From a virus: a stretch of 30,895 bases of DNA. This document shows positions 4,868 to 16,669 of this stretch, in pieces (position 1 is the first letter of the stretch; the number at the start of each line of letters is the position of its first letter). The notes under the pieces are model-generated. The model did not search any database, was not told the origin of the DNA, and worked only from the letters and a program-made list of their open reading frames with translations. A program made the position numbers and the translations under genes. The DNA lies in the IMG/VR virus record IMGVR_UViG_3300044970_001249, positions 1 through 30,895 of that record. The stretch is one strand, 5' to 3'.

Positions 4868-4902
4868 TTGTGAGGCATAACGCTAAACGCCATACTGATT
4901 AC
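4868..4902 (+). promoter_or_regulatory. Leaderless promoter (rightward, divergent region)
   Basis: -35 TTGTGA, 17 bp, -10 CATACT, 6 nt to ATG 4903. Confidence 0.8.
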
Positions 4903-5196
4903 ATGAGCAACACAATCACCAAGCGAGACACGGACTGCCTCGCTTACAGCAACAACGAACACGCCTTCTTCATCATTGAGGGTGCGTACCTCGCTTCCAG
5001 TCCGAAGAACAGTTCTGCCGTTCAGTTCTGGTCATACGACATTGCCAACGGCACTCTCACCGTTCAGTACAAGTCGTCACCGACTTTCTACCGATACGAG
5101 AGCGTTCCGTTTCAGGTCATCTTTGACCTCATGCTGGCAGACAGCCTCGGTCAGTTCATCGCAAAGGTGGTGAAGCCGAACTATTCGGTGGCGTGA
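4903..5196 (+). CDS. KTSC-domain protein
   Basis: 97 aa. The C-terminal half matches the KTSC domain pattern: VQYKSSPTFYRYESVP, then VIFDLMLADSLGQFI and a closing KPNY. KTSC domains are small alpha/beta modules of uncertain biochemical role, found alone in phages and next to nucleic-acid enzymes. A second copy lies at 12459-12764. Start set by the leaderless promoter. Confidence 0.8.
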   Translation: MSNTITKRDTDCLAYSNNEHAFFIIEGAYLASSPKNSSAVQFWSYDIANGTLTVQYKSSPTFYRYESVPFQVIFDLMLADSLGQFIAKVVKPNYSVA

Positions 5197-5198
5197 GG

Positions 5199-5233
5199 TT
5201 GTCGTTCCGACACTTACAAGCCATAATGAAGGC
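5199..5233 (+). promoter_or_regulatory. Leaderless promoter
   Basis: -35 TTGTCG, 17 bp, -10 CATAAT, 6 nt to ATG 5234; begins 2 nt after the previous stop codon. Confidence 0.85.
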
Positions 5234-5668
5234 ATGAGCATGATTACCCAAGAGCAACTAATCGGGTGGGCGAGAGAGATAGACGCTCAACTCCCCATTC
5301 CAACCGAACCCGAGGACACCACGACACCGTTGGATTTCGGCAGGACAGGCATTGTCGTTATGTCCGACAACGCCCCACTCCTTATCGCAGTAGGCGATGA
5401 CCCGTTCGCACTCTTGGAGAGCGATGAGGTGCGTGTGTTCGCCCGTGGATACGGTGCGTTCTTCATGGTCACTTACGGTGGCGTAATCCAACAGGACATG
5501 GAGACAGGAGATACGGAGGCGCACATCGCTCGCTGTATCATGGGCATGACCTACAACGGAGTGAACACGGCTCTCATGCGCTTCTTGGACAACGACCACA
5601 TTGAGGTGGACATGGAAGGCACGGGCGCAGGCTCGGCACACGAAGCCATGTTGGAGGTGTTCGCATGA
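5234..5668 (+). CDS. Hypothetical protein
   Basis: 144 aa, acidic, predicted alpha/beta. No motif recognised. First gene of a two-gene unit: its TGA overlaps the next ATG (ATGA). Start set by the leaderless promoter. Confidence 0.75.
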   Translation: MSMITQEQLIGWAREIDAQLPIPTEPEDTTTPLDFGRTGIVVMSDNAPLLIAVGDDPFALLESDEVRVFARGYGAFFMVTYGGVIQQDMETGDTEAHIARCIMGMTYNGVNTALMRFLDNDHIEVDMEGTGAGSAHEAMLEVFA

Positions 5669-6237
5669 ACCCGTCAGAACTTCTCGCCCGTATCGCAGAA
5701 ACAGCGAAAGAGACGAAGTTGGAACTGTGCCAAGAGCACGGGGGCCCCGCCGATGGTATGCCCATCTTGCTTGGTCTTGACCCCGTGGGAACACCGTTCA
5801 TGCTTCCCGATGTGCTGGAAGGACACCCGACAGACAACTTGGCTGTCATTCTGAACCTGCTTGCTCAGAAACTCAACGAGAAGAATGAGACGATGAAGTG
5901 GGAGTGGCTCGCCTACATTGTTGAGGGTTATCTAAACGACTCTCCGACTGTGGAAGAACTAGATGCCCATGAACGGGGAGACTACGAACGGGACTACAAG
6001 AACAACCCTGCTTCCACGGTCAAGGAAGGACTCATCATCACATTGTTCACATGGGAGGGCGAGTCAGCCTGTGCGACCATCGTGTACCACTACGGTGACG
6101 ATGGTATGCCCGTGTGGGAGAACACGCTGGAACCCGATGAGGAACCACAAGGCTTGGTTCCCGACATCTTCCGTGATTTCCGTACCTTCTGTCATTACGA
6201 GGGCGACATGAACGCTGTCCTCGCAAGCCGAGAATAG
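5665..6237 (+). CDS. Hypothetical protein
   Basis: 190 aa, acidic. Reads as a soluble alpha/beta protein with a charged middle (ERGDYERDYKNN). Translationally coupled to the previous gene. Family not recognised. Confidence 0.75.
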   Translation: MNPSELLARIAETAKETKLELCQEHGGPADGMPILLGLDPVGTPFMLPDVLEGHPTDNLAVILNLLAQKLNEKNETMKWEWLAYIVEGYLNDSPTVEELDAHERGDYERDYKNNPASTVKEGLIITLFTWEGESACATIVYHYGDDGMPVWENTLEPDEEPQGLVPDIFRDFRTFCHYEGDMNAVLASRE

Positions 6238-6238
6238 G

Positions 6239-6251
6239 TTTCCACCACCGT
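6239..6251 (+). repeat. Stoperator-like element copy 2 (one mismatch)
   Basis: TTTCCACCACCGT, one base off the consensus, starting 1 nt after the stop at 6237 and overlapping the GTG of the small membrane protein at 6250. Confidence 0.6.
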
Positions 6252-6402
6252 GAAGTCTAAAGAAAGAGCGATAAGGCACGTTTTCTACGGCTTAGTGCTG
6301 TCGTATGCCGTTCTCTTTCCGAACCTCCACCCGGGGCTCACGCTCCTGTGCGTGGCAGGGTCGGTGTACGCCTACACGGTTGCGTTCCGAAACCTACAAT
6401 AA
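6250..6402 (+). CDS. Small membrane protein
   Basis: 50 aa from a GTG at 6250. A basic N-terminus is followed by two hydrophobic segments (about residues 9-20 and 28-43), so a two-TM hairpin protein is likely. No good Shine-Dalgarno is seen and the start overlaps the repeat element, so the start is uncertain. Function unknown. Confidence 0.5.
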   Translation: MKSKERAIRHVFYGLVLSYAVLFPNLHPGLTLLCVAGSVYAYTVAFRNLQ

Positions 6403-6417
6403 ATCTTTCCCGACAGG

Positions 6418-6452
6418 TTGTTGCCTCGCCCCTTAGAAGCCATAATGAAGTT
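6418..6452 (+). promoter_or_regulatory. Leaderless-type promoter driving a structured RNA
   Basis: -35 TTGTTG, 17 bp, -10 CATAAT; the base 7 nt after the -10 (6453) is the first base of the closing helix of the RNA, giving a precise predicted transcript start. Confidence 0.8.
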
Positions 6453-6702
6453 GTGAGGGCAACACCCTCCGAAATACATAGCAACCACTTCGGTTGTATC
6501 TATCGTTTGGCAACGCTAAGGCTCTTCGGATTGATAAGGCTCTTCTGCGAAACTTTGTTCTCCTAGGGAACATCGTCACTCCAGCAACCCGTCCTCTTCT
6601 CCGCAATCCGTCCGCCTCTCGCCAGTAGATACAGCCAGCCGACGGGCAAGAGGTGGGAGGGTCGCTCCCTCGGCTGTGTGTTTCGTAGGGTGTTGCGCTC
6701 AC
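6453..6702 (+). ncRNA. Structured noncoding RNA, unrecognised family (~250 nt)
   Basis: The 5' end (6453-6474) pairs with 6681-6702 at 20 of 22 positions, closing the molecule exactly at the predicted transcription start. Inside: 6492-6502 pairs with 6626-6636 (11 bp, one G-U), competing with a CAACC/GGTTG hairpin (6482-6496); hairpin TGTTC/GAACA (6556-6572); 7-bp helix 6636-6642/6670-6676 enclosing GGGAG/CTCCC (6655-6669). CCTCTT (6593-6598) could pair with AAGAGG (6648-6653). TAAGGCTCTTC occurs twice (6517-6527, 6535-6545). A 37-codon GTG frame starts at 6453 but does not look like protein. It does not match tRNA, tmRNA or RNase P conserved sequences known to me. It could be a free RNA or a long 5' leader controlling the gene at 6717. 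Confidence 0.75.
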
Positions 6703-6716
6703 AGGAAGGAAACGAA

Positions 6717-6944
6717 ATGGATACTCTGTACGACATTGAGTGTAAGCAGAAGTACGAAGAGATGTTGGCATCGGAGCCCCGAGAACCTGGCTATTCGCCG
6801 TCTCAACTGTTCTCTGTCATGGTCGTCATGCGCTGTAGTCGTGAGAAGGCTAAGTCCCTCATTGACAAGTACGCAAGTGAACTTGACTGGTCAGAATGTA
6901 CTTGGTGCGAAATGCGGGACTACTTCATTCTCTGTACCTCATAA
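6717..6944 (+). CDS. Hypothetical protein downstream of structured RNA
   Basis: 75 aa. ATG 6717 is preceded by a good Shine-Dalgarno (AGGAAGGA, 6-7 nt away) that begins 1 nt after the RNA closing helix, so ribosome access could depend on that RNA's fold. Contains CTWC near the C-terminus and a helical middle. One of the few genes here without its own leaderless promoter. Function unknown. Confidence 0.7.
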   Translation: MDTLYDIECKQKYEEMLASEPREPGYSPSQLFSVMVVMRCSREKAKSLIDKYASELDWSECTWCEMRDYFILCTS

Positions 6945-6966
6945 GCAAACTTTCTTGTTGCCGAGG

Positions 6967-7001
6967 TTGTGGTCTCACTCACTACAAGCCATAATGAAAA
7001 C
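6967..7001 (+). promoter_or_regulatory. Leaderless promoter
   Basis: -35 TTGTGG, 17 bp, -10 CATAAT, 6 nt to ATG 7002. Confidence 0.85.
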
Positions 7002-7334
7002 ATGATGACGCAGATAGAAGCAGTAGAACAGAGCAACACCGACACACTCCCCGAATACCGAGTGCTGTGTGACGGGTTGGAAATCCAAGACAAGAGCGCA
7101 CAGATGACTGTGACCGTCAAGAAGTACCGAAAGATGTACGAGAGGGTCAAGGGCGACACCTACGCCACATGGACAGTCATGGTGAACATCACAGATGACT
7201 GTGGCAAGCCGTTCCATTCGTGGGGCGTATTCATGCTCACGGCAAGGTCAAATGGGTGGAGCCTGTTCGGTGGGGACTACTTCCACACCGAGGAAGAGGC
7301 ACTCACTCGCTATTACGAAAGGGGTGGTGAGTGA
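7002..7334 (+). CDS. Hypothetical protein
   Basis: 110 aa, predicted beta-rich (MTVTVKKYRKMYE...TWTVMVNITD), starting with a double Met. Single-gene leaderless unit; its stop lies 2 nt before the next promoter's -35. No known family seen. Confidence 0.75.
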   Translation: MMTQIEAVEQSNTDTLPEYRVLCDGLEIQDKSAQMTVTVKKYRKMYERVKGDTYATWTVMVNITDDCGKPFHSWGVFMLTARSNGWSLFGGDYFHTEEEALTRYYERGGE

Positions 7335-7336
7335 GG

Positions 7337-7371
7337 TTGTTATTCCAACCCTTACAAGCCATACTGAACAC
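7337..7371 (+). promoter_or_regulatory. Leaderless promoter
   Basis: -35 TTGTTA, 17 bp, -10 CATACT, 6 nt to ATG 7372. Confidence 0.85.
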
Positions 7372-7878
7372 ATGAACAAGATGAACAAGAAACTTCAAGA
7401 ACTTCTAGACCTTGCCGTAATCAACGGCGTGACCGTGGACGAACTTCTCCGAGAGAAGGAACTGGGCGCAAAGGTGGACAAGCCGTTCACTCTCGCACTC
7501 AAGTTTGACCGACTCCAAGAGTTGGTGGACTTCGTGAACAAGAACATCGCAGGTTGCGTGTGGCGAGCAGACGGGCTTGACCCTGAGTTCGGGACTCGCG
7601 GAGGAGCGAACTGTTATGTCATTCGTGGCGAGACCTGTTCCAAAGCAGAGGAACTCCGAATCACCAATCCTGACGGTTCACTCGCTGTGGAAGGCAACAA
7701 GCCCGAACAGTTCCGTGAGTGTCCACGCTGTACGCACTTCATTCCCAATGACGAAACGCCCGGGGCTTACCCCGGAGCCATCTCCCGAGTGGACAATGAG
7801 ACAGAAATCTGTTCGTCGTGTGGCGTTGAGGAAGCACTTCTCCAGTATCAGGGAATCTTGGAAGACTGGCGTAAGTAG
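7372..7878 (+). CDS. Zinc-ribbon-containing hypothetical protein
   Basis: 168 aa. The N-terminal ~60 residues are helical and charged. The C-terminal part has a zinc ribbon: CPRC near residue 117 and CSSCG near residue 150, inside the block SRVDNETEICSSCGVEEAL, a pattern common in actinobacteriophage zinc proteins. Likely a nucleic-acid or protein adaptor. The ATG at 7372 follows the promoter by 6 nt, so the longer upstream reading frame was rejected. Confidence 0.8.
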   Translation: MNKMNKKLQELLDLAVINGVTVDELLREKELGAKVDKPFTLALKFDRLQELVDFVNKNIAGCVWRADGLDPEFGTRGGANCYVIRGETCSKAEELRITNPDGSLAVEGNKPEQFRECPRCTHFIPNDETPGAYPGAISRVDNETEICSSCGVEEALLQYQGILEDWRK

Positions 7879-7879
7879 G

Positions 7880-7914
7880 TTGTGACCTGTCGGCTTACAA
7901 GCCATAATGAAGGC
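7880..7914 (+). promoter_or_regulatory. Leaderless promoter
   Basis: -35 TTGTGA, 17 bp, -10 CATAAT, 6 nt to ATG 7915; begins 1 nt after the previous stop. Confidence 0.85.
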
Positions 7915-8331
7915 ATGAGCAACACTTTCATCGCCTCAGGCGAAATCACCAACGACTGCCAATGCCTTGTCTACAACGACGGCTCAGGCGACCAATCACT
8001 TGACCCCGACTACACCTGTTATGGGGACTGTTGGGAGTTTGCCGTTGAGGACTTCACAATGCTGACAGAGGACTTCCGAAAGACCAACCTGTCGGGTTGG
8101 TGGAAGGTCACCGACTTGCGCCTGTGGAACGGCAACACCTCAGGTTACTTCCATGCCGACAATGTGGCAGGACTCATTGAGGGCATGACCGTCCGTTCAG
8201 GTTGGACAATGCGCTACGAAGTCTTTGCTGACCGCATTGAGTACTCGCTGTCTCACCATGACGCACCCACGGGGAGCGCAACCACGCTGACCGTTGTCAC
8301 CGAGGAAGAGGCTGAGAGGTTGGGGCTGTGA
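7915..8331 (+). CDS. Hypothetical protein
   Basis: 138 aa, acidic, several Trp and Cys. Beta-rich appearance (WWKVTDLRLWNGNTSGYF). First gene of a two-gene unit with GTGA overlap. No family recognised. Confidence 0.75.
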   Translation: MSNTFIASGEITNDCQCLVYNDGSGDQSLDPDYTCYGDCWEFAVEDFTMLTEDFRKTNLSGWWKVTDLRLWNGNTSGYFHADNVAGLIEGMTVRSGWTMRYEVFADRIEYSLSHHDAPTGSATTLTVVTEEEAERLGL

Positions 8332-8549
8332 ACGAAGAGTTCCGCACCGACTATGTCACCCGAGAGTTCGGAGGCTTGGTGGGCAAGACTGTCAAGGCAG
8401 TCCGCCCCCTCAGCCCCGCCGAGTGCGCTGAGTTCATGTGGCAGTACGACTCTCAAATGGCATGGCTCATTGAGTTCACGGACGGGACTCTCGCCGTGCC
8501 GTCGTGCGACCCCGAAGGCAACGGCAGGGGACACCTGATTATTCTCTGA
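8328..8549 (+). CDS. Hypothetical protein
   Basis: 73 aa from a GTG at 8328 overlapping the upstream stop (GTGA). LVGKTVKAVRPLSPAE and MAWLIEFTDGTLAVP suggest a small beta-barrel-like fold. Function unknown. Confidence 0.7.
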   Translation: MNEEFRTDYVTREFGGLVGKTVKAVRPLSPAECAEFMWQYDSQMAWLIEFTDGTLAVPSCDPEGNGRGHLIIL

Positions 8550-8566
8550 TAAATCTGTGTGGCAGG

Positions 8567-8601
8567 TTGTCGTCTCTGCCCTTACACGCCATAATGATTA
8601 C
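8567..8601 (+). promoter_or_regulatory. Leaderless promoter
   Basis: -35 TTGTCG, 17 bp, -10 CATAAT, 6 nt to ATG 8602. Confidence 0.85.
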
Positions 8602-9006
8602 ATGAACCACAAACACATCACCGAACAAATCATCACCGATACCCCAATGGAACTTCCACAGGCTGTCCTGTACGGAGTGAACCCACAGGGCGACACGGTG
8701 GAACTCGGTCGTTATCCCGACATTTACGACCTTCTCGCAAAGGACTACGACAACGAGAACCTTGTCGGTATCGCAATCCACACAACGGGTTGGGCGGCAC
8801 CACTCAACGCAGACGGGGAAGTGGAAGGCGCACCTAGCGCACACCCCAATCGTGTCCGTGTTGCGCTTGTCGCCACAATCACCACTCACGGTTTCTGCTC
8901 GGCTATCGCCTTCGGTGACGGTCGTGAGACTGTCTTTGAGGAGAACGCCCCTTCGGGTGCGTTGTGGGAAGCCATGAACGACTGCTTGGAAAGGTTGGTG
9001 GGGTAA
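8602..9006 (+). CDS. Conserved actinobacterial-type hypothetical protein
   Basis: 134 aa. The core (VGIAIHTTGWAAPLN, then HPNRVRVALVATI, a Phe-Gly-Asp turn and a Trp-containing C-terminal helix) resembles a small conserved protein often seen in actinobacteria and their phages; its biochemical role is unknown to me. Single-gene leaderless unit followed by a strong terminator. Confidence 0.75.
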   Translation: MNHKHITEQIITDTPMELPQAVLYGVNPQGDTVELGRYPDIYDLLAKDYDNENLVGIAIHTTGWAAPLNADGEVEGAPSAHPNRVRVALVATITTHGFCSAIAFGDGRETVFEENAPSGALWEAMNDCLERLVG

Positions 9007-9047
9007 TCCCCCACTCGCCCAGCGCACTTCGGGGTAAGTCCCCCGTT

Positions 9048-9093
9048 GTGCGTGTCGGCAGTCCCGGCGTCCTGAGACACGCACAAGTTTTTT
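9048..9093 (+). terminator. Intrinsic terminator
   Basis: Perfect 9-bp stem GTGCGTGTC (9048-9056) / GACACGCAC (9076-9084), then AAG and six T (9088-9093). A CGGGG/CCCCG hairpin precedes it at about 9030-9045. Confidence 0.85.
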
Positions 9094-9103
9094 GTCTCAC
9101 AGG

Positions 9104-9138
9104 TTGTTACATAACTTCTTAGAAGCCACAATGTACGA
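9104..9138 (+). promoter_or_regulatory. Orphan leaderless-type promoter
   Basis: -35 TTGTTA, 17 bp, -10 CACAAT, but no start codon at the expected position. Directly downstream of a terminator, so it starts a new unit. Confidence 0.75.
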
Positions 9139-9181
9139 CCCTTTCCACAGATGTCTGTGGATAAGAAATCTCATTTTTTTT
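9139..9181 (+). ncRNA. Possible ~45-nt hairpin RNA
   Basis: From the orphan promoter's predicted start: TCCACAG-atgt-CTGTGGA (7-bp stem), then eight T at 9174-9181, 9-10 nt after the stem. The same bases form a TGTGGATAA box at 9156-9164, so it could instead be a protein-binding site. A start at ATG 9152 in-frame would give only 26 codons. Confidence 0.4.
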
Positions 9182-9192
9182 GCGAGGTGAGG

Positions 9193-9227
9193 TTGCCCCC
9201 TAAACGCTTACACGCCATAATGAAGGT
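9193..9227 (+). promoter_or_regulatory. Leaderless promoter
   Basis: -35 TTGCCC, 17 bp, -10 CATAAT, 6 nt to ATG 9228. Confidence 0.8.
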
Positions 9228-9605
9228 ATGAAGAAAGCACTAATCATCAAGGCAGACGGAACACTCCCTACCGTCATAGAAATCCCGTCACAGGTGGAGA
9301 CCTATCAGGTCATCAAGGACACGGTTGCCAGCCCAAACGGGGATTGGTTTGACTGTGTGCGTGGAGAGTCGTTTCACGGCTATGTGAACGACACAGGTCT
9401 GATTGACGGACTCCCCATGAACCCGATTGCTTCCATCCTGTTCGGGCAGGTCTTGTGTGGAGATGTAATCCTGTTCGGGTCATACTCTCCCAAGGGCGAG
9501 TATGACGGTGACGAGTACGACATTCCCGAATGGGTAGTCGCAAATGTCCGTTCAGCGTTCATGCTGTGGAAGATGAACGCAGACGCTCAGGCGGTCTGGG
9601 TATGA
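9228..9605 (+). CDS. DUF3846-like protein
   Basis: 125 aa. The pattern MKKALIIKADGTLPTVIEIP, then GYVNDTGLIDGLPMN and later GDVILFG matches the DUF3846 layout: beta strands around a G-L-P-x-N turn and a closing GDVxL. The family is widespread in phages and mobile elements with no fixed function. Start by leaderless promoter; ATGA overlap with the next frame. Confidence 0.8.
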   Translation: MKKALIIKADGTLPTVIEIPSQVETYQVIKDTVASPNGDWFDCVRGESFHGYVNDTGLIDGLPMNPIASILFGQVLCGDVILFGSYSPKGEYDGDEYDIPEWVVANVRSAFMLWKMNADAQAVWV

Positions 9606-10012
9606 CCCCTTTCCGCCACCGTCGCTTCATTAGAAAGAAGAAACTCCGTTACCCAGCAGCCCCGCAGCCCGATTGGAAGCGCATAGAGAAGGGCAGAGCA
9701 GATAGTGGCAAGTTCACGCCGAACGGGGCCACCGACAGGCAGGCTCGCCTGAACATTCATCAGTATCCCCATGACCGTGCCGACTACGAAAAAAATCCGT
9801 TTCGGAATGTTGTGAACCCAACCCTTACAAGCCATAATGGACTTATGAGGGAAGGAGGAATCACCGAGATGAGCAAGTCGCATCGTGTCGCAATGGCACA
9901 GGCACTTATCACCGAACTCGCCGAGGCGCACCAGCGTCACGGTGATACGGAAGGCACTCGGCGGTTGCAGGCGATGGTCGCCCGTATGGTCGCCGAACTG
10001 CTGTACCGCTAA
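9602..10012 (+). CDS. Basic hypothetical protein with internal in-frame leaderless start
   Basis: 136 aa from ATG 9602 (ATGA overlap). The frame runs without a stop through a full copy of the promoter into a second, internal start at ATG 9845 (55 aa) and another at 9869 (47 aa, GGAAGGAGG about 10 nt before). The upstream half is very basic (RHRRFIRKKKLR). The downstream product (SHRVAMAQALITELAEAHQRH...) looks like a small helical protein. Either a long and a short form share a C-terminus, or only the short form is made and the upstream frame is fortuitous. Confidence 0.5.
   Translation: MTPFRHRRFIRKKKLRYPAAPQPDWKRIEKGRADSGKFTPNGATDRQARLNIHQYPHDRADYEKNPFRNVVNPTLTSHNGLMREGGITEMSKSHRVAMAQALITELAEAHQRHGDTEGTRRLQAMVARMVAELLYR
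9610..9622 (+). repeat. Stoperator-like element copy 3
   Basis: Exact TTTCCGCCACCGT, then 5 nt, then CATTAGAAA; 4 nt after the stop at 9605. Here it would be inside the 9602 frame, which argues against that frame being selected as protein. Confidence 0.7.
9810..9844 (+). promoter_or_regulatory. Leaderless promoter inside an open frame
   Basis: -35 TTGTGA, 17 bp, -10 CATAAT, 6 nt to ATG 9845. Confidence 0.8.
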
Positions 10013-10268
10013 TCGGTAAAGTGCTACCGAGTCAGACTCGGCGCTCGGGGGAGCGTGGCAACAGAATCCCCCCAGCCCCCACGGAGGTTCCCGTGGGCGT
10101 TCACGGAGTATGGCTCCGAGGCGCAAGCCCCCCTTGCGTTAGCACTCTGAGTGCCGTGAACCCCTACGGGAGCAACTGTGGTGAGTGGCTCCGCGCGGGA
10201 CTCAAGCCGTGGGTGGGTACTCCTTTATCTCCCTGCCCACGGCTTCCGCATCACACTCCCACATGGGG
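10013..10268 (+). other. GC-rich structured intergenic region
   Basis: No convincing gene. Successive inverted repeats: CCGAGT/ACTCGG near 10028-10041; CCCACGG/CCGTGGG (10078-10084/10091-10097); GTTCACGG/CCGTGAAC (10099-10106/10154-10161) enclosing CGCAAG/CTTGCG (10122-10138) and CACT/AGTG (10143-10153); GGAGC/GCTCC near 10169-10192; AAGCCGTGGG/CCCACGGCTT (10204-10213/10236-10245). This could be a branched RNA read through from the gene at 9845 or a 5' leader of the gene at 10293. Confidence 0.55.
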
Positions 10269-10292
10269 CATAATGAGCCCCGAGGTACAACT

Positions 10293-10709
10293 ATGTCTGA
10301 CACAATCACCACAATCTGCGACAACTGCGAGCGTGAGGTCAAGAGCGTTTACATGGGCGTGGACTTGCCCGATAACGGTCTTTACTTCTCGCCTAACAGC
10401 ATGGGCTATTACGCAGGCTTCTTTGACAACTTCCCACCTGACGAAGAGGACAAGGATGGGTATTCCATTTGCCACGAATGTGCCGTGAACTTCATGACTG
10501 CGTTGCCGGGGCTGGCGAAGCGTCTGCTCCCGTTCGGAGGGGGACACCCGATAAGCGGTCACTACCCTGACCCACCTTGCTGTCCGTGGGCGTGGACATG
10601 GGACGAGGAAGCCCCGTGTCCCGAGTGTGGAGCCGTCACGACCTGTCTCGCCAATCACGACATGATGTGGGAAAGACAAAAATGTCGGTGCCTGAGGTTG
10701 TCAAACTAA
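10293..10709 (+). CDS. Multi-zinc-knuckle hypothetical protein
   Basis: 138 aa. CxxC pairs at CDNC (about residue 9), CHEC (about 56) and CPEC (about 113) with a following C. Probably two zinc sites. ATG 10293 has a GAGGT Shine-Dalgarno 7 nt upstream; a CATAAT -10 lies farther up (10269-10274) within a GGGGC/GCCCC inverted repeat, so this gene is leadered, unlike its neighbours. The last codons form the -35 of the next promoter. Confidence 0.7.
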   Translation: MSDTITTICDNCEREVKSVYMGVDLPDNGLYFSPNSMGYYAGFFDNFPPDEEDKDGYSICHECAVNFMTALPGLAKRLLPFGGGHPISGHYPDPPCCPWAWTWDEEAPCPECGAVTTCLANHDMMWERQKCRCLRLSN

Positions 10710-10732
10710 CCCTTACAAGCCACAATGGGTGT
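10698..10732 (+). promoter_or_regulatory. Leaderless promoter overlapping previous stop
   Basis: -35 TTGTCA, 17 bp, -10 CACAAT, 6 nt to ATG 10733; stop codon 10707-10709 is inside the spacer. Confidence 0.85.
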
Positions 10733-11002
10733 ATGACCAACTACGACGCATGGCTCGAGAAGCCGTACCAAGACCAATACGACGCAGAAGTGACACGCAA
10801 CCTCATCTGCTCAGAGGACAAGGAAGAGGGCGACCCCTACTGCGACTACGAGGGCGAGGCTGATGCCTGCGTCACGGACGAGTCAAGCGGTAAGCGTTGG
10901 TGGTCGGTGACCTACGAGGGCGAGTGTCCGAAGTGCGGTGCCTCTTTCCGACAGACGGAAGGCGACTACGACGACTCCCCCGAGGAGTACTGGTACGGAT
11001 GA
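10733..11002 (+). CDS. YDxWLExPYQDQY-family zinc protein
   Basis: 89 aa. N-terminus MTNYDAWLEKPYQDQY is shared with the protein at 14977 and recalls short N-terminal modules in other actinophage proteins. The C-terminal part has a single CPKCG knuckle plus upstream cysteines. Very acidic. Leaderless first gene of a two-gene unit. Confidence 0.75.
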   Translation: MTNYDAWLEKPYQDQYDAEVTRNLICSEDKEEGDPYCDYEGEADACVTDESSGKRWWSVTYEGECPKCGASFRQTEGDYDDSPEEYWYG

Positions 11003-11265
11003 AAATCTACTGGGATGACGACCTAGTTCCAGGCGACTTCCTGGAACACCTGGAAGAGTCGGGCTACAACGAACCCGAGGACTGCGTTTGCGAATGTGGG
11101 GAAATCACCGAGGGCGTAGCCCCGTGGTTCCATCTGTCGGCGAACGGGCTGTGGATTCACTACGAGTTCCCGTGCGGGGCTTGCGACGCACAGTCCACCG
11201 AGGCGATGGACATAACTGACATCTATGCCCGTTGGGGCGTGAGAAAGTTGGAGAAATCTCTCTGA
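10999..11265 (+). CDS. Small Cys-rich hypothetical protein
   Basis: 88 aa, ATGA overlap with the previous gene. CVCECG near residue 33 and CGAC near residue 65 could form one zinc site; the rest includes WFHLSANGLWIHYEF, a beta hairpin. Function unknown. Confidence 0.7.
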   Translation: MKIYWDDDLVPGDFLEHLEESGYNEPEDCVCECGEITEGVAPWFHLSANGLWIHYEFPCGACDAQSTEAMDITDIYARWGVRKLEKSL

Positions 11266-11271
11266 TGAAAG

Positions 11272-11306
11272 TTGTGAAGTCCACCCTTACAAGCCACAAT
11301 GATGGT
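11272..11306 (+). promoter_or_regulatory. Leaderless promoter
   Basis: -35 TTGTGA, 17 bp, -10 CACAAT, 6 nt to ATG 11307. Confidence 0.85.
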
Positions 11307-11555
11307 ATGACCACCACAACGAAGTACACAGATACCTTTCAGGGCTTGCTTGACTGCGAGTACTACTCCCTCGGCGCAACGGGCGCAGAAGCGTTGGCAG
11401 CGATGCTTGACGACTACAACGAGGGTCGCCTCACCGAGTTCCTCGCAGAGCAGGGCGTGACGGACGCAGAGTTCCTCGCAACCGTGAACCGCCTCGCCGT
11501 GAAGTGGGCGAGCGAGAACCTCCTCAACTTCCGAATCGGGGTGGACGGGCGATGA
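11307..11555 (+). CDS. Hypothetical helical protein
   Basis: 82 aa, Ala/Glu/Leu-rich helices (AEALAAMLDDYNEGRL, FLATVNRLAVKWASENLL). Leaderless start; ATGA overlap with the DUF4314 gene. No family recognised. Confidence 0.7.
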   Translation: MTTTTKYTDTFQGLLDCEYYSLGATGAEALAAMLDDYNEGRLTEFLAEQGVTDAEFLATVNRLAVKWASENLLNFRIGVDGR

Positions 11556-11770
11556 ACCAGCCAACCGAAAGCATCCTCGCAATCTTGCGAACCTACAAGG
11601 GGAAGCGAGTACGCCTTCACCACACAAGTGATGCGTTCACCCGCCTAGTCCCGGGCGACGAAGGCGTCGTCACTTTCGTTGATGACTGCGGGACTGTCCA
11701 TGTCGCATGGGACAACGGTTCCACCCTCGGACTTATTTACAGAGAAGATAGTTATGAGGTTGTGGCTTAG
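11552..11770 (+). CDS. DUF4314-domain protein
   Basis: 72 aa. GKRVRLHHTSDAFTRLVPGD, EGVVTFVDDCGTVHVAWDNG and a closing YREDSYEVV match DUF4314, an SH3-like small beta barrel common in mobile elements, role unknown. Its last codons (Tyr-Glu-Val-Val-Ala-stop) overlap the next promoter's -35. Confidence 0.85.
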   Translation: MNQPTESILAILRTYKGKRVRLHHTSDAFTRLVPGDEGVVTFVDDCGTVHVAWDNGSTLGLIYREDSYEVVA

Positions 11771-11794
11771 TCCCTTAGAAGCCATAATGAACAT
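11760..11794 (+). promoter_or_regulatory. Leaderless promoter overlapping previous stop
   Basis: -35 TTGTGG, 17 bp, -10 CATAAT, 6 nt to ATG 11795; stop 11768-11770 is inside. Confidence 0.85.
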
Positions 11795-12253
11795 ATGGGA
11801 TTAGACCAATACTTATCAGCAAAAACAGTCGTAGTGGGTGGAGACAGCCCACGAAGCGAGACCTACAACAAAATCCTCACAGCAGTCGGCTCACCGACAA
11901 CCCGTGAGCGAGTTCTGCCAATGGCGACAGTCACCGTTCAGGTGGGCTACTGGCGCAAAGAGAACGCCATTCACAAGTGGTTCGTGGACAATGTTCAGGA
12001 CGGCGAGGACAACTGTGCCGAATACTTTGTCGGCAGAGAGCAGTTGGAAGAACTGAAAGAACTGTGCGAGAAAGTTCTCGCAGACCACTCACTCGCAGGC
12101 GAGTTGCTTCCCACGCAAGAGGGCTTCTTCTTCGGCTCAACGGAGTTTGACGAGTGGTACTTCACGGGACTGCGTGACACGGTGGAAATCGTGAACCTTT
12201 GCTTCTCACCTGAGTACGAGAACTGGGAGTTCACATACCAGTCGTCTTGGTAG
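11795..12253 (+). CDS. Conserved phage protein (MGLDxYL family)
   Basis: 152 aa. MGLDQYLSAK, then VGYWRKENAIHKWFVDNVQDGEDNC and GFFFGSTEFDEWYFTGLRDT are hallmark blocks of a small protein found in phages of many hosts. The invariant Trp/Arg/Lys/His cluster hints at a ligand- or nucleic-acid-binding site, but no function is established to my knowledge. Full length for the family. Confidence 0.85.
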   Translation: MGLDQYLSAKTVVVGGDSPRSETYNKILTAVGSPTTRERVLPMATVTVQVGYWRKENAIHKWFVDNVQDGEDNCAEYFVGREQLEELKELCEKVLADHSLAGELLPTQEGFFFGSTEFDEWYFTGLRDTVEIVNLCFSPEYENWEFTYQSSW

Positions 12254-12257
12254 GGGC

Positions 12258-12270
12258 TTTCCGCCACCGT
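12258..12270 (+). repeat. Stoperator-like element copy 4
   Basis: Exact TTTCCGCCACCGT, 5 nt, CATTAGA; 4 nt after the stop at 12253. First part of composite control region I. Confidence 0.7.
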
Positions 12271-12338
12271 GACCACATTAGATAACACTTCTCCTCGGTC
12301 GGGGAGTCCCGCCGGTGATAAATCCTTCCCTCATAGGC

Positions 12339-12406
12339 TTATCCACAGGCGGGGCTCTCTCAGGGGGTGTGTCAGGGTTGTTTATCCACAGGAAAGTTGT
12401 GGATAA
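12339..12406 (+). promoter_or_regulatory. DnaA-box-like cluster, control region I
   Basis: TTATCCACA at 12339-12347 and 12382-12390, then TGTGGATAA at 12398-12406, ending 17 bp before the -35 at 12424. GGGGGTGTGTCA lies between (12363-12374). Confidence 0.7.
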
Positions 12407-12423
12407 CTTTCTTCGGTGGAATG

Positions 12424-12458
12424 TTGTGAGTACGACCCTTACAAGCCACAATGGAGTT
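12424..12458 (+). promoter_or_regulatory. Leaderless promoter with phased upstream box
   Basis: -35 TTGTGA, 17 bp, -10 CACAAT, 6 nt to ATG 12459. Confidence 0.85.
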
Positions 12459-12764
12459 ATGAGCAACACAGCAACCCTCAAAAAGTCCCTCACGGGGAAG
12501 TTCACCTACATTGAGTACACCAACGGCGAGTGCGCCATTATCGGCGAGGACTACATCATGTCGTTCCCTGAGAACAGCACGGCTATCGCAGAGTGGACAT
12601 ACCGACCTGCCGTACAGAACCTTGTGGTCGCCTACAAGAACAGCACCACCACCTACATCTACGAGGGTGTCCCCATGAGCGTCATCTTCGCCATGCTCAC
12701 AGCCGACAGCCTCGGTGCGTTTATCGCCCGTGAGGTCAAGCCGAACTACGGGGTGAAGGTCTAA
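12459..12764 (+). CDS. KTSC-domain protein, second copy
   Basis: 101 aa, clearly paralogous to 4903-5196: same length, matching VVAYKNSTTTYIYEGVP, VIFAMLTADSLGAFI and final KPNYGV. The N-terminal halves share MSNT and a hydrophobic strand. This copy is under a promoter with the DnaA-box-like element; the other is not, so the paralogs are probably expressed under different conditions. Confidence 0.8.
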   Translation: MSNTATLKKSLTGKFTYIEYTNGECAIIGEDYIMSFPENSTAIAEWTYRPAVQNLVVAYKNSTTTYIYEGVPMSVIFAMLTADSLGAFIAREVKPNYGVKV

Positions 12765-12949
12765 TGGGCTTGTTCACGACCTACCTCGCCTACAAGGTGG
12801 GCAAGCGTGTCGGCAGAAGCGGGGCAGAGCCCGACGAGTTCTTCACGGGCGACCCGACCTGCCTACACTATGACGAGTGTGCCAACGAAGGTGGGTGTCT
12901 CAACCGTGCCTGTGAGTTCGGAGAAATCTCGGATGAAGGTTGTTGTTAG
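12764..12949 (+). CDS. Small protein with hydrophobic N-terminus and Cys-rich tail
   Basis: 61 aa, TAATG overlap with the previous gene. MGLFTTYLAYKVGKRVG is an amphipathic N-terminal helix; the tail has CLHYDECANEGGC, C and CC, resembling small phage proteins of unknown role. Its end overlaps the next promoter. Confidence 0.7.
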   Translation: MGLFTTYLAYKVGKRVGRSGAEPDEFFTGDPTCLHYDECANEGGCLNRACEFGEISDEGCC

Positions 12950-12974
12950 TCCCACTAAAAGCCATAATGAATGT
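12940..12974 (+). promoter_or_regulatory. Leaderless promoter overlapping previous stop
   Basis: -35 TTGTTG, 17 bp, -10 CATAAT, 6 nt to ATG 12975. Confidence 0.85.
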
Positions 12975-13091
12975 ATGAGCATCAACGACATTTACGAAAA
13001 CTGGGACACCCCCGACACCTGCTATTGCCGAGACAACTACGAAGGCGAGTGCCGAGTGTGTGAAAAAGAGGAAGAGGAGGACGACGAGTGA
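12975..13091 (+). CDS. Acidic Cys-containing microprotein
   Basis: 38 aa: four cysteines (CYC, CRVC) then a poly-Glu/Asp tail. Possibly a one-zinc microprotein. Leaderless; GTGA overlap couples it to the next gene. Confidence 0.65.
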   Translation: MSINDIYENWDTPDTCYCRDNYEGECRVCEKEEEEDDE

Positions 13092-13669
13092 CCAAGCGCA
13101 AGCGCAGGGTAGAGCAACTGTGCCTGCCCGAAGAACTACCCATGCTGGTTGAGTCGCTGGCTCAGGCGTGGATGCTGGGCGCAGCCCCGAAGGTCGTACA
13201 GAACGCCTGTGTCGCAGGCGCACGGTTCGCCGTTGAGTACCTTCGGCGTGTCGGCGTAGAGGCGTGGGCTACGCAGGTGGATGCTCTCGCCCTAGACGAG
13301 CAGTCGTACCAAGATGTTCTCGCCAAGCGAAATCCAACTGGCTGGTCGGTCGGGGCTCTCTCGCTGACCACCGTACCGAACACATGGAACGGTCATGTTG
13401 TTGTGGAGACGCAGGACTGGTTCATTGACCTGACGGCAGGGCAGATGAGCCGACCACACAAAGAAATCACGATTCTCAACGGGCTGTGTGTCCCAACCGA
13501 AAAACTGCTTCACCATGAAAATGTTTGGCAAGGTGAGTGGTATGAAGTCCCGGTATCCCAGGGTCACTACCTGTTCAGGGACGCCGTGGTTCAGAGAGAC
13601 ATCACCACAGCCCCCGACTGGCACGGTGGTCTAGACCTTCTAAAAGATGTTGTAAAACTTACCGACTGA
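13088..13669 (+). CDS. Transglutaminase-like / cysteine-protease-fold protein
   Basis: 193 aa from GTG 13088 (GTGA overlap). The order Cys41 (QNACVAGARFAVEYLRRVGVEA), His103 (WNGHVVVE) and Asp114 (WFIDLTAGQ) fits the Cys-His-Asp triad of transglutaminase-like proteins, with the typical helix after Cys and a G-H-strand-W-F-x-D-T/L block. Related stand-alone proteins occur in actinobacteria and phages. Activity (crosslinking, proteolysis or deamidation) cannot be told from sequence. Confidence 0.65.
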   Translation: MTKRKRRVEQLCLPEELPMLVESLAQAWMLGAAPKVVQNACVAGARFAVEYLRRVGVEAWATQVDALALDEQSYQDVLAKRNPTGWSVGALSLTTVPNTWNGHVVVETQDWFIDLTAGQMSRPHKEITILNGLCVPTEKLLHHENVWQGEWYEVPVSQGHYLFRDAVVQRDITTAPDWHGGLDLLKDVVKLTD

Positions 13670-13671
13670 GG

Positions 13672-13706
13672 TTGTGGTTGTGTTCACTACAAGCCATAAT
13701 GGGTGT
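13672..13706 (+). promoter_or_regulatory. Leaderless promoter
   Basis: -35 TTGTGG, 17 bp, -10 CATAAT, 6 nt to ATG 13707. Confidence 0.85.
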
Positions 13707-13937
13707 ATGAGCAACACCAACATCCAATGCGAATACTGTGGCGAAGTCCCCATTTCGGGAGACTGTCCCCACGGCTGTCACGAGCGTCTCCCGAAGGCGT
13801 GGCGCAACGGCAGATACATCTACTGCCTGAGCCACAGCACGGAGCAGGTCTTTGAGTACGAAATCATCTACAAGGGCGACCCTGCGCTGTCCTACGGTAA
13901 GCGCAAGTGCGACTGGTGTAAGAAGGTGCTGGCATGA
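13707..13937 (+). CDS. Small zinc-ribbon protein
   Basis: 76 aa. N-terminal CEYCG...CPHGCH and C-terminal CDWCKKVL give six cysteines and a histidine, probably two zinc sites. The CPxGC pattern recurs in the protein at 15614. First of a run of overlapping small genes (13707-14148). Confidence 0.75.
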   Translation: MSNTNIQCEYCGEVPISGDCPHGCHERLPKAWRNGRYIYCLSHSTEQVFEYEIIYKGDPALSYGKRKCDWCKKVLA

Positions 13938-14083
13938 GCAGGCGCAAGCACATTGCCCAAGACAAGTGGTGCGAAGCCGACAGGCAAGCGTTCGCTGACG
14001 GAAATCGTCTAAGGGCGACCACCATTCCTGACAAGCGCAAGAAAGCAAGCCGAGAAGCCTGCCGAGCATGGAGGCCCCGATGA
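13934..14083 (+). CDS. Small basic protein
   Basis: 49 aa, ATGA overlap on both sides. Strongly basic (MSRRKHIAQDK; PDKRKKASREACRAWRPR), suggesting nucleic-acid contact. No family recognised. Confidence 0.65.
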   Translation: MSRRKHIAQDKWCEADRQAFADGNRLRATTIPDKRKKASREACRAWRPR

Positions 14084-14148
14084 TAGGCACGCTTGCGTTT
14101 ATCTGCTGGTTGTCTATTATCGCTTATGCCATACACAAAGGAGTCTGA
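14080..14148 (+). CDS. 22-aa membrane microprotein
   Basis: ATGA overlap start at 14080. Reads M-I-G-T then a hydrophobic stretch to a Lys-containing end: one TM helix. Supported by overlap with its neighbours rather than by family. Confidence 0.5.
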   Translation: MIGTLAFICWLSIIAYAIHKGV

Positions 14149-14150
14149 GC

Positions 14151-14228
14151 ATGAGCGAGTATCTAGGAATGTTTGCGGTTTGTAGCCTGCTGTTCTTTGC
14201 GGTTTCGTACATCATCAAGAACTGGTAG
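14151..14228 (+). CDS. 25-aa membrane microprotein
   Basis: ATG 14151 preceded by AAAGGAG (about 8 nt). Sequence is almost all one TM segment (GMFAVCSLLFFAVSYII) ending KNW. Adjacent to another TM microprotein, so the two may interact. Confidence 0.5.
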   Translation: MSEYLGMFAVCSLLFFAVSYIIKNW

Positions 14229-14239
14229 ACTCGGGGCTC

Positions 14240-14428
14240 ATGGCACGATACATCTGCGAAATCTGTGATGCCGAAGTAGACCCCAAAGCATCTAATGTCT
14301 TACACCTTGTGACCGTTTGGGTAAAGGGCGGGTCTAACAGCATCAAGAAAACCGAAACACAGCATTATCGTTTCGTTCACGACTTCTGCCAACGCCCCGC
14401 GAATGAAGACCAACTTTCTTTGTTCTAA
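14240..14428 (+). CDS. Small zinc-knuckle protein
   Basis: 62 aa. CEIC near the N-terminus and a later H...C (HDFC) could make a treble-clef-like site. No leaderless promoter and a weak Shine-Dalgarno, so it is probably read through from upstream. Confidence 0.65.
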   Translation: MARYICEICDAEVDPKASNVLHLVTVWVKGGSNSIKKTETQHYRFVHDFCQRPANEDQLSLF

Positions 14429-14450
14429 CCAAATAATGTTGTAAGACAGG

Positions 14451-14485
14451 TTGTTGTTCTAACCACTAAACGCCATAATGAGTGT
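14451..14485 (+). promoter_or_regulatory. Leaderless promoter
   Basis: -35 TTGTTG, 17 bp, -10 CATAAT, 6 nt to ATG 14486. Confidence 0.85.
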
Positions 14486-14803
14486 ATGGATAACTACAAC
14501 ATCACCCTCAATAAGAATGAGTTGCGTGTTGGTGGTCGGAAGGTGGCAACCGTGTCAAACTTCCCTGCCTTGCGTGACGCATTGTTCTCAAACCTGACAC
14601 GACACGAAGCCGTGTACCTCGCTGTTTCACTTCTCGGTGAAGCCCGAACTGCCGAAATCGCCAAACTGCTTGGCGAGGACAAGGCAAACACTACGAAGCG
14701 TTTGGAAGCACTCGTAGATGACGGCAGGCTGACAATCGTGGAAACGGCAAACCGAAAGCCGGGACCGGGTCGCCCCTCTCGTGTGTGGGCGATAGCCGAC
14801 TAA
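14486..14803 (+). CDS. Winged-helix DNA-binding protein (paralog A)
   Basis: 105 aa. Residues about 55-82 (TAEIAKLLGEDKANTTKRLE, ALVDDGRL) form an HTH with recognition helix; the wing follows and ends GRPSRVW (about 95-101). This is the MarR/ArsR-like layout. The same HTH plus GRPSRxW signature recurs at 20173-20439. It is a candidate regulator of the repeated promoters or DnaA-box-like sites. Single-gene unit, followed by a stoperator-like element. Confidence 0.75.
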   Translation: MDNYNITLNKNELRVGGRKVATVSNFPALRDALFSNLTRHEAVYLAVSLLGEARTAEIAKLLGEDKANTTKRLEALVDDGRLTIVETANRKPGPGRPSRVWAIAD

Positions 14804-14806
14804 GGC

Positions 14807-14819
14807 TTTCCGCCACCGT
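14807..14819 (+). repeat. Stoperator-like element copy 5
   Basis: Exact TTTCCGCCACCGT, 5 nt, CATTAGAAA; 3 nt after the stop at 14803. First part of composite control region II, followed by a CGGGGG/CCCCG-type GC-rich hairpin near 14842-14860. Confidence 0.7.
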
Positions 14820-14903
14820 AAGGGCATTAGAAACACACAACCTTCGGGGGCGAAGCCCCGCGCAGAGTTTGTTAGTTCGCAACGATTGTTGTTTAGCATC
14901 AGT

Positions 14904-14924
14904 TGTGGATAAACCTGTGGATAA
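14904..14924 (+). promoter_or_regulatory. Tandem DnaA-box-like pair, control region II
   Basis: TGTGGATAA at 14904-14912 and 14916-14924: direct repeats at 12-bp periodicity, ending 17 bp before the -35 at 14942. Confidence 0.75.
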
Positions 14925-14941
14925 CTTTATGGTGGTCAAGG

Positions 14942-14976
14942 TTGTTGTTTCTACCATTACAAGCCATAATGGGTGT
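14942..14976 (+). promoter_or_regulatory. Leaderless promoter with phased upstream boxes
   Basis: -35 TTGTTG, 17 bp, -10 CATAAT, 6 nt to ATG 14977. Confidence 0.85.
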
Positions 14977-15171
14977 ATGACCGATTACGACTCATGGCTG
15001 GAACAGCCCTACCAAGACCAATACGCATGGGACGACCTGTGCGAACAGTACGAAGGTACTGACCAACACAAGGAAGACCTTGCCGAGTGGCTTGCGGAGA
15101 ATCCCGACATGAAGGCAGAGGACTTCTGGGACTACTGCGAGGACTTCGTGAGAAGGTGGGCAGACCGATGA
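14977..15171 (+). CDS. YDxWLExPYQDQY-family protein, second copy
   Basis: 64 aa, acidic. N-terminus MTDYDSWLEQPYQDQY is nearly the same as in 10733-11002, but the rest is a helical acidic tail without cysteines, so the shared N-terminal module is joined to different C-termini. ATGA overlap with the next gene. Confidence 0.75.
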   Translation: MTDYDSWLEQPYQDQYAWDDLCEQYEGTDQHKEDLAEWLAENPDMKAEDFWDYCEDFVRRWADR

Positions 15172-15398
15172 ACCAAGACGACTTTGACCAAGACCCCGAG
15201 GAGAGCCCCGAGTTCGTTCCCGTAGAGGAGAGCGAGGATGAGGAGTTTGACCCGTTCAGCGACCCGAACTACCATGCCCCCAACAGGTGTAGCGACCCTA
15301 ACTGTTGGGAGTGTGATGACGACGATGACGGGGCTGGCTCGGAGAAGTTCCCAGGCGAGGACATTTGGTGGAAGACCAACGACAAGTGGAACAAATAA
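15168..15398 (+). CDS. Very acidic protein with one Cys cluster
   Basis: 76 aa. Dominated by Asp/Glu (DDFDQDPEESPE; WECDDDDDG) with CSDPNCWEC in the middle, possibly a metal site. Acidic phage proteins can act as DNA mimics, but nothing specific supports that. Second gene of a coupled pair. Confidence 0.65.
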   Translation: MNQDDFDQDPEESPEFVPVEESEDEEFDPFSDPNYHAPNRCSDPNCWECDDDDDGAGSEKFPGEDIWWKTNDKWNK

Positions 15399-15411
15399 TC
15401 TTCATGGAATG

Positions 15412-15446
15412 TTGTGATTCTGACTCTTACAAGCCATAATAGAAGT
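15412..15446 (+). promoter_or_regulatory. Leaderless promoter
   Basis: -35 TTGTGA, 17 bp, -10 CATAAT, 6 nt to ATG 15447. Confidence 0.85.
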
Positions 15447-15614
15447 ATGAGTGCTATGAAACGAATCACCGAAATACTGGACGACATGTTCCGTCCGATG
15501 TGTCCCAAGTGCGGGTACATCCCCAAGAACAAGCCCGAGGGCTACTGCTTCTACTGCGAAATGGCAGGAGACTGGTGCCAGTGCGATGTGTCTGACATGT
15601 GTAAGTGCGACTGA
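15447..15614 (+). CDS. Cys-rich zinc-ribbon microprotein
   Basis: 55 aa. CPKCG...CFYC forms a plausible zinc ribbon; the tail adds CQC and CKC. TGATG overlap with the next Cys-rich gene, so they are probably made together. Confidence 0.7.
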   Translation: MSAMKRITEILDDMFRPMCPKCGYIPKNKPEGYCFYCEMAGDWCQCDVSDMCKCD

Positions 15615-15796
15615 TGCCGAACAGGTGGTCACACAGGTGTTCGGGGTGCGGCGCAGCCCCGATAAACGGTTTCTGCCCGTACGGGTGCGAGGAGTTTCTC
15701 TGCGGAGACTGCGCCCAAGACGAAGCCTATGCCGAAGAACTGCGGGGCTACCCGCTGGCGCAACTACCCCCGTGCGACCGATGTGGAAATAAATAG
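15614..15796 (+). CDS. Cys-rich zinc protein
   Basis: 60 aa. CSGCG, CPYGC, CGDC and CDRCG give eight cysteines, enough for two zinc sites in a compact fold. The GAxPINGFCPYGC part resembles PISGDCPHGC of the protein at 13707, suggesting paralogy. Confidence 0.7.
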   Translation: MPNRWSHRCSGCGAAPINGFCPYGCEEFLCGDCAQDEAYAEELRGYPLAQLPPCDRCGNK

Positions 15797-15815
15797 GTAA
15801 ATCTTTCTCAACAGG

Positions 15816-15850
15816 TTGTGGTCATAACTACTAAATGCCACAATGAAGAT
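15816..15850 (+). promoter_or_regulatory. Leaderless promoter
   Basis: -35 TTGTGG, 17 bp, -10 CACAAT, 6 nt to ATG 15851. Confidence 0.85.
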
Positions 15851-15991
15851 ATGAACGAAGAAACCTTCCCCATCATCAAGTGCGTCACCGAAGAGTGCGA
15901 GAACATGACCGACATGGTCGTCTGCGAGGACTGCGTGGACAGAATGCTCCCTGCCTACGAGCGACACCTAGAGAGGCAACAGGGGCTGTAA
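15851..15991 (+). CDS. Small zinc-knuckle protein
   Basis: 46 aa. Cys11, Cys16, Cys25 and Cys28 (CVTEEC...CEDC) are spaced like a single zinc finger; the rest is a charged helix. Supported by the leaderless promoter at the exact distance. Confidence 0.7.
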   Translation: MNEETFPIIKCVTEECENMTDMVVCEDCVDRMLPAYERHLERQQGL

Positions 15992-16039
15992 GCCCCCTAG
16001 TCGCCGTTGTGCTACATTCTCACCAAGCGAGGTGAGACT

Positions 16040-16141
16040 ATGAGCAATGGCAGAATAAAGGGCAAGAAGTACGGCGGTCTGTTTGACTGGAGGCGTAAGC
16101 CGACCACACGGACTGGTGCGAAGAAGCGGAAGAGCAAGTAA
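16040..16141 (+). CDS. Small basic protein
   Basis: 33 aa: KGKKYGGLFDWRRK and a Lys/Arg-rich tail. ATG 16040 has GGTGA about 5 nt upstream. Its TAA shares a base with the next ATG (TAATG). A nucleic-acid-binding peptide is possible. Confidence 0.5.
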   Translation: MSNGRIKGKKYGGLFDWRRKPTTRTGAKKRKSK

Positions 16142-16467
16142 TGCCCGTTGGTTGGGGCGGCAGCCCCGGTGCAGAAGAAATGACTGGCGACTTAGCGCAA
16201 TACACCAAGTACTTTGCTCTCCATGACCTTGACTTTGACATCATGTACAGGTCGGGGCTGTGGAGTGTGACGGTTTGGGGAAAACGAGAAATCCCACCCG
16301 TGAAGGTGAGAAATGTGAAAGTAATGGACGACACAGATGGTGGATTTCATTGGGAATACTCCACACTCACTCATTTGCGAGACTTTGTTGCGACGAGCGA
16401 GTCCCGCGCGACGCTTGACGAGGCTTTACAGCAGGCGTATCAAGCCGTGAAGGTGGCTAGGGTCTAG
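16141..16467 (+). CDS. Hypothetical protein
   Basis: 108 aa, N-terminal GWGGSPGAEE, then alpha/beta. A C-terminal helix (TLDEALQQAYQAVK) ends the protein. Its TAG lies in a CTAG that is also the stop of the leftward gene 16464-16634 (convergent, sharing the palindrome). Confidence 0.65.
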   Translation: MPVGWGGSPGAEEMTGDLAQYTKYFALHDLDFDIMYRSGLWSVTVWGKREIPPVKVRNVKVMDDTDGGFHWEYSTLTHLRDFVATSESRATLDEALQQAYQAVKVARV

Positions 16468-16634
16468 CCCTTCCGCTGAACCCAGCCGTCGCCCTCAGGC
16501 TCCCAGCCAGCGTCCTTGAGGAGTCCAACGATGACCTGCATCGCAATCCACTCCCCCTTGTCCAGTATCGCCTTTGCTTCGGCGAGGTACTTGACTTCGG
16601 TGGGGTGCTCTTCTATGTACTGATTGCTGTTCAT
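16464..16634 (-). CDS. Small protein, lone leftward gene in a rightward block
   Basis: 56 aa: helical N-terminus (YLAEAKAILDKGEWIAMQVI) and WEPEGDGWVQRKG end. Leaderless promoter on the minus strand. Its 5' side faces a parS-like palindrome and a rightward promoter, so it is well placed to be a regulatory gene, but no DNA-binding motif is clear. Confidence 0.7.
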   Translation of the reverse strand: MNSNQYIEEHPTEVKYLAEAKAILDKGEWIAMQVIVGLLKDAGWEPEGDGWVQRKG

Positions 16635-16669
16635 ATGACCATTATGGCGTCTAAGCAACCGAACCACAA
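16635..16669 (-). promoter_or_regulatory. Leaderless promoter (leftward)
   Basis: -35 TTGTGG, 17 bp, -10 CATAAT, 6 nt to ATG 16634. Confidence 0.8.

Follow-up and report, generated by a model that had tools for sequence, protein, structure and literature searches.

A previously undescribed family of structured phage RNAs with a predicted homodimer contact

It is known that the HIV-1 DIS is a hairpin loop whose 6-base palindrome is flanked by unpaired bases and which dimerises by loop-loop kissing, and that the phi29 pRNA is a phage-encoded, stand-alone RNA multimerising through loops, two different complementary loops giving rise to rings. In mycobacteria, Ms1 is found in place of 6S RNA. Homomultimers are rare among natural RNAs and have unknown roles, in particular the phage-borne ROOL and GOLLD RNAs (PMC12286853); in OLE and GOLLD RNA, palindrome switching has been taken as evidence for intermolecular kissing loops (PMC12286853). 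The RNA described in this work belongs to a previously undescribed family and is of a known kind, that of structured phage RNAs with a gene of their own, here with a predicted contact for homodimer formation.

The stretch of DNA analysed (the window) is the IMG/VR virus record IMGVR_UViG_3300044970_001249, 30,895 bases long, and the RNA lies on its plus strand at 6453-6702. A preliminary description of this DNA had proposed here a structured RNA of about 250 nt, and the predicted fold (-114.8 kcal/mol, z -8.4, with 0 of 200 dinucleotide shuffles equally stable), together with the covariation disclosed in relatives, supports that proposal. On sequence evidence, the locus is confirmed as a genuine structured RNA gene and no chance fold, transcription itself being inferred. 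Its features are the following:

6418..6446 (+): promoter, with TTGTTG at 6418-6423 (-35-like), a 17-nt spacer and CATAAT at 6441-6446 (-10)
6453..6702 (+): structured non-coding RNA of about 250 nt; +1 is 6453, and the 3' end, about 6702, is inferred from where helix P1 ends
6453..6481 (+): 5' arm of the terminal helix P1, pairing with 6674-6702
6485..6491 (+): 5' strand of P2, CCACUUC, pairing with 6650-6656 (CCGCAAG/CUUGCGG in L042)
6492..6502 (+): 5' strand of P3, GGUUGUAUCUA, long-range, pairing with 6626-6636
6515..6525 (+): first GAUAAGGCUCU-type repeat, GCUAAGGCUCU in the window; conserved, unpaired in the consensus
6533..6543 (+): second GAUAAGGCUCU repeat, invariant in 12 aligned members
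6556..6572 (+): P4 apical hairpin, UGUUC-U-CCUAGG-GAACA; palindrome at 6562-6567, putative kissing-loop homodimer contact
6587..6596 (+): first AUCCGUCCUC-type repeat (ACCCGUCCUC)
6606..6615 (+): second AUCCGUCCUC-type repeat (AUCCGUCCGC)
6626..6636 (+): 3' strand of P3, UAGAUACAGCC
6638..6647 (+): P5 side hairpin, GCC-GACG-GGC; the stem covaries (GCC/GGC, CCC/GGG, GUC/GAC, UCC/GGA)
6650..6656 (+): 3' strand of P2, GAGGUGG, covarying
6657..6671 (+): P6 hairpin, GAGGG-UCGCU-CCCUC; the stem covaries
6674..6702 (+): 3' arm of P1, pairing with 6453-6481
6717..6944 (+): small downstream ORF (MDTLYDIE...), outside the RNA, without a promoter of its own seen in the window and not adjacent in relatives

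In leaderless mRNAs, which are common in actinobacteria, the start codon coincides with the transcription start. In Mycobacterium avium, one third are reported to be leaderless (PMC3774663). The host of the phage is inferred to be a member of Actinomycetota, since WhiB and a transglycosylase-like protein are encoded in the window; WhiB is also present on a contig carrying two RNA copies. A 12-mer, AAGCCATAATGA, mostly with GGTTGT upstream, occurs in 35 copies in the window (up to two mismatches), the plus strand alone having 30 matches versus 0.95 per strand in shuffles, and in 30 of the 35 copies an ATG lies at one identical offset. The promoter of the RNA belongs to the same series as these leaderless-gene promoters, about 30 in number. 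The preliminary description had predicted a start at 6453 from a dedicated promoter, and the offset rule leads to the same base, i.e., the first base of P1. A generic sigma-70 scan returned no call here, and the support for this promoter comes from the window's own series.

Promoters of the series with ATG at a fixed distance (about 30) extend over 4887-22809 on the plus strand, with additional minus-strand sites; judged from the letters alone, this array is one of small leaderless genes with one promoter each. A second promoter of the series without ATG precedes 19135 to about 19265 (+), which has a terminator-like end, CCCCAU...AUGGGGUUUUU; the predicted fold of 19135-19420 is strong (z -4.4), and another non-coding RNA is likely there. 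A third one, at 9139 to about 9180 (+), is followed by the hairpin CCACAGATGTCTGTGG and then by eight consecutive T, and a very short RNA is possible.

In order to retrieve relatives, the MoxR-like neighbour was used as a query, leading to related phages, three of which carry the RNA at about 69-74% identity; a wider set was obtained through a pattern of doubled TAAGGCTCT, and further members through a second pattern. About 14 distinct members are known in some 20 viral contigs (the window, L006, on the same contig as L002, L004, L011, L058, L042, L067, L054, L064, L090, L051, L065, L092 and L070), besides the reduced forms L117/L120 and L121; as the scans required exact patterns, the size of the family is underestimated. 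When MoxR and two neighbouring genes were used as protein queries, relatives both with and without the RNA were recovered, and the covariance model R1 detected no diverged copy in the MoxR relatives lacking it. In whole records, two full copies exist in seven contigs, and two full copies plus a partial third in 3300036770_005499 (at about 13.3, 16.0 and 29.9 kb); in L069, the two copies are about 2.9 kb apart. The reduced form L121 (11735-11783, minus strand) consists of one GAUAAGGCUCU and one AUCCGUCCUC with a UCUAGA hairpin between them, and is perhaps a minimal module. The last pattern scan yielded no full new member, its only result being L199 (1-54, minus strand), a contig end that matches the RNA in its 5' part at E 0.006 and is probably a cut-off member.

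When the window and three members were compared at the DNA level with 50,697 phage records, for near as well as for distant similarity, all matches were at chance level. A pattern scan of 84,980 bacterial and archaeal genomes (a species-level collection) gave 16 matches and no convincing member, those inspected being coding-repeat-like or lacking the rest of the RNA. Actinomycetia phage DSL-LC01, which is from a lake and whose genes include WhiB, AAA ATPase and cobalamin-type ones, has no copy of the RNA in its full sequence. With Rfam 15 at gathering scores, the window and 11 relative loci matched two tRNAs only, outside the RNA (the window's sole matches, at 24.8-25.0 kb), and permissive scans of three members, extended to E 5-10, gave only chance-level matches. 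The preliminary description had recognised no hallmarks of tRNA, tmRNA, RNase P or 6S RNA, and this was upheld, tRNA, tmRNA and all Rfam families being negative.

The structure P1, P2, P3, P5 and P6 (48 pairs, defined from the window) was mapped onto two alignments. In A5 (nine sequences, aligned by sequence alone), 89.8% of the pair cells are standard and 35 of the 48 pairs have changed on both sides; when the structure was slid by 1-3 columns, these values fell to 39-44% and 7-11 pairs. A6 comprises fourteen sequences fitted to R1, the A5 count being therefore the cleaner one, and has 91.9% standard pairs, 42/48 changed on both sides. R1, built on the nine sequences, retrieves group B, absent from the building set, with E values from 6e-25 to 1e-20, and L117/L120 at 3e-7; in L117 and L121, the consensus is incomplete. 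Taken singly, the relatives fold with more modest z-scores (-2.5 to -8), so that the case for the structure rests mainly on covariation. The preliminary description had suggested a covariance search, holding that its proposal would fall if homologous loci kept the short reading frame and lost the pairing; the relatives found show the reverse, the frame being lost and the pairing kept (89.8-91.9% standard pairs, with changes on both sides in 35 of the 48 in A5 and in 42 in A6).

The terminal helix it placed as closing at 6702 is present in three segments (6453-6457/6698-6702, 6459-6468/6687-6696 and 6470-6481/6674-6685); both sides have changed in 20 of the 22 counted pairs, 95% paired in A6, while the outermost 5 bp were left outside the counted structure and checked by eye in the closest relatives only. 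The 11-bp long-range helix, 6492-6502/6626-6636, is likewise found. The pseudoknot CCTCTT/AAGAGG, which the preliminary description had called possible, is not supported and was rejected: AAGAGG shares bases with the 3' strand of P2, a strand that covaries with a different partner, and the complementarity is lost in relatives. As for P5, the GACG loop is constant in 9/9 members of the building set, and its complement, CGUC, is contained in the second repeat type; a contact between them is possible, with too little variation on either side to test it.

Two readings other than an RNA are to be weighed against these data. A small leaderless protein might be encoded, as the promoter series normally has ATG at +1 and this position is occupied by ATG or GTG in six of the nine members (the window group and L042/L067). 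However, L054, L064 and L090 have ATA, ATC and GTT at this position, the peptides are dissimilar, L011 meets a stop after nine codons, and the spacing of the two GAUAAGGCUCU repeats is 17, 18 or 19 nt depending on the relative, which rules out a frame; a coding role is practically untenable, and the embedded 37-codon frame, already judged non-protein-like, is indeed not conserved. Direct repeats and palindromes are typical of replication origins and of recombination or packaging sites, so that the pairing might reflect dyads of a DNA element. This is very improbable, since G-U pairs outnumber A-C mismatches by 57 to 11, indicating selection on one RNA strand, with the plus strand as the functional one; moreover, an extra base in the P4 loop, most often a single 5' U, breaks the dyad symmetry, and the series promoter sets +1 at the first base of P1.

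Between the P3 strands, two GAUAAGGCUCU repeats are followed by hairpin P4 and then by two AUCCGUCCUC repeats. The 11-nt sequence repeated 18 nt apart, previously noticed, is present at 6515 and 6533; what had been missed is that the apical loop holds a palindrome, that a second motif is repeated as well, and that relatives exist which form a family. The P4 palindrome is CCUAGG in the window and L117, GCUAGC in L051, L065 and L092, CCCGGG in L042, L067 and L054, CCGCGG in L090, ACUAGU in L064, and UCUAGA in L070, L121 and L004/L006/L011, i.e., six different 6-base palindromes whose letters vary and whose self-complementarity is kept. All 11 distinct P4 intervals contain one (0.25-0.55 per interval in shuffles), and in nine it is off-centre within the hairpin loop (0.06-0.19 per interval in dinucleotide shuffles); the sequences are related, and the independent events are fewer than 11. 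In L004/L006/L011, the palindrome has no clear stem and is not clearly in a loop. Among paralogues, the L042 and L054 types both have CCCGGG, while L064 and L090 differ (ACUAGU, CCGCGG), and contig 3300044732_003033 harbours an ACUAGU loop in one copy and CCGCGG in the other.

The minimum-energy monomer folds of several members run the stem into the palindrome, pairing part of it inside the hairpin and leaving a 3-nt loop. The RNA might then act in trans as a monomer, with the palindrome as a mere hairpin tip whose inner bases pair together. This remains unlikely without being negligible, since the central steps switch among UA, CG and GC even though these neighbouring bases are sterically unable to pair within one hairpin, which points to pairing between two molecules; in L064, L070 and L121, moreover, the palindrome lies in open loops of 9-14 nt. 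Homodimerisation through P4 is considered probable, as inferred from the palindromes and not demonstrated.

The neighbours of the RNA in the window are small genes of unknown function. No promoter is seen there in the interval that separates the RNA from the ORF at 6717, as would be compatible with the RNA acting in cis on this downstream gene, as a leader of the riboswitch, attenuator or antitermination type. A conserved position ahead of one gene type, however, is not found: neighbours differ in relatives, copies adjoin unrelated small genes, and the ORF next to L002/L006 is a different, unrelated one that has a promoter-like sequence to itself. In several relatives (the L042/L054/L064/L090 group), a promoter-like sequence, TATAATGA, lies immediately behind the RNA, and the closing helix P1 takes in both RNA ends. 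A leader is decidedly improbable; the differing downstream genes and the promoter-like sequences make trans action the most likely, and a structured RNA acting in trans is held with high confidence, its transcription being inferred.

Concerning its partner, no antisense targets of either repeat motif were found in the phage DNA examined beyond the RNA itself, save isolated one-mismatch sites, making a host RNA or protein likelier. Mimicry of an anti-Shine-Dalgarno sequence was considered and rejected: CCUCCU is limited to some members, CCGYCCUC alone being general.

The following mechanism can be proposed. A promoter of the leaderless-gene type of an actinobacterial tailed phage would start an independent non-coding RNA at 6453, whose product of about 250 nt would fold into a stacked rod (P1-P2-P3) with the side hairpins P5 and P6. 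The apical domain at its far end, mostly single-stranded, would display two GAUAAGGCUCU and two AUCCGUCCUC around P4, whose self-complementary loop may pair with that of another molecule, so that the resulting homodimer would carry each motif four times. The dimer might act in trans as a scaffold or decoy binding a host component via the repeats. Taken as a whole (promoter, rod, P4 homodimer, trans scaffold or decoy), this is the best explanation and is favoured with some reserve, transcription, dimerisation in solution and partner being inferred. That the RNA is a scaffold or decoy for a host factor is, on its own, a doubtful guess. It is possible, and no more than tentative, that these RNAs represent a new family of phage RNAs which form specific homodimers and capture a host factor via repeated motifs in the course of infection, i.e., an actinophage dimeric decoy, with loop palindromes that stay distinct between some paralogues (ACUAGU versus CCGCGG in 3300044732_003033).

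Among known RNAs, 6S and Ms1 resemble the phage RNA in size range, long terminal helix, stand-alone gene and presumed trans action, so that it might bind RNA polymerase in the same way. However, no Rfam match to such families was obtained, even at E 5-10, and conserved repeats and a palindromic loop are not known as features of 6S; a 6S/Ms1-like role is improbable. The phi29 pRNA differs in that its loops form a complementary pair, whereas the P4 loop is self-complementary; the phage RNA has no Rfam match to pRNA, and no link to packaging genes was seen. The HIV-1 DIS likewise has a palindromic hairpin loop, the comparison being one of working only, as it resides in packaged genomic RNA and the RNA described here is a small RNA of a DNA phage.

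OLE, ROOL and GOLLD are, like the phage RNA, structured non-coding RNAs, ROOL and GOLLD being phage-borne, and their symmetric kissing loops with palindrome switches support homo-oligomers (PMC12286853). The phage RNA is less than half their length, differs in fold and sequence, has no Rfam match and has one predicted self-contact, compared with five or more in theirs. Of the criteria for homo-oligomeric ornate RNAs, which also include a multimer seen by cryo-EM, mass photometry or light scattering, the two that concern sequence are fulfilled, namely a covarying complex secondary structure in a non-coding RNA and a palindrome-switching symmetric loop (PMC12286853), L004/L006/L011 being unclear for the latter. 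Its size of 250 nt, clean covariation, exact predicted start and testable 6-base dimer contact make it suitable for rapid biochemistry, and the family would offer a way into two questions, the reason for which phages make structured RNAs and the partners that these bind in actinobacteria. By the tests available, the phage RNA belongs to no described family and, with dimerisation inferred, appears to work like the homo-oligomeric RNAs and the retroviral dimerisation site.
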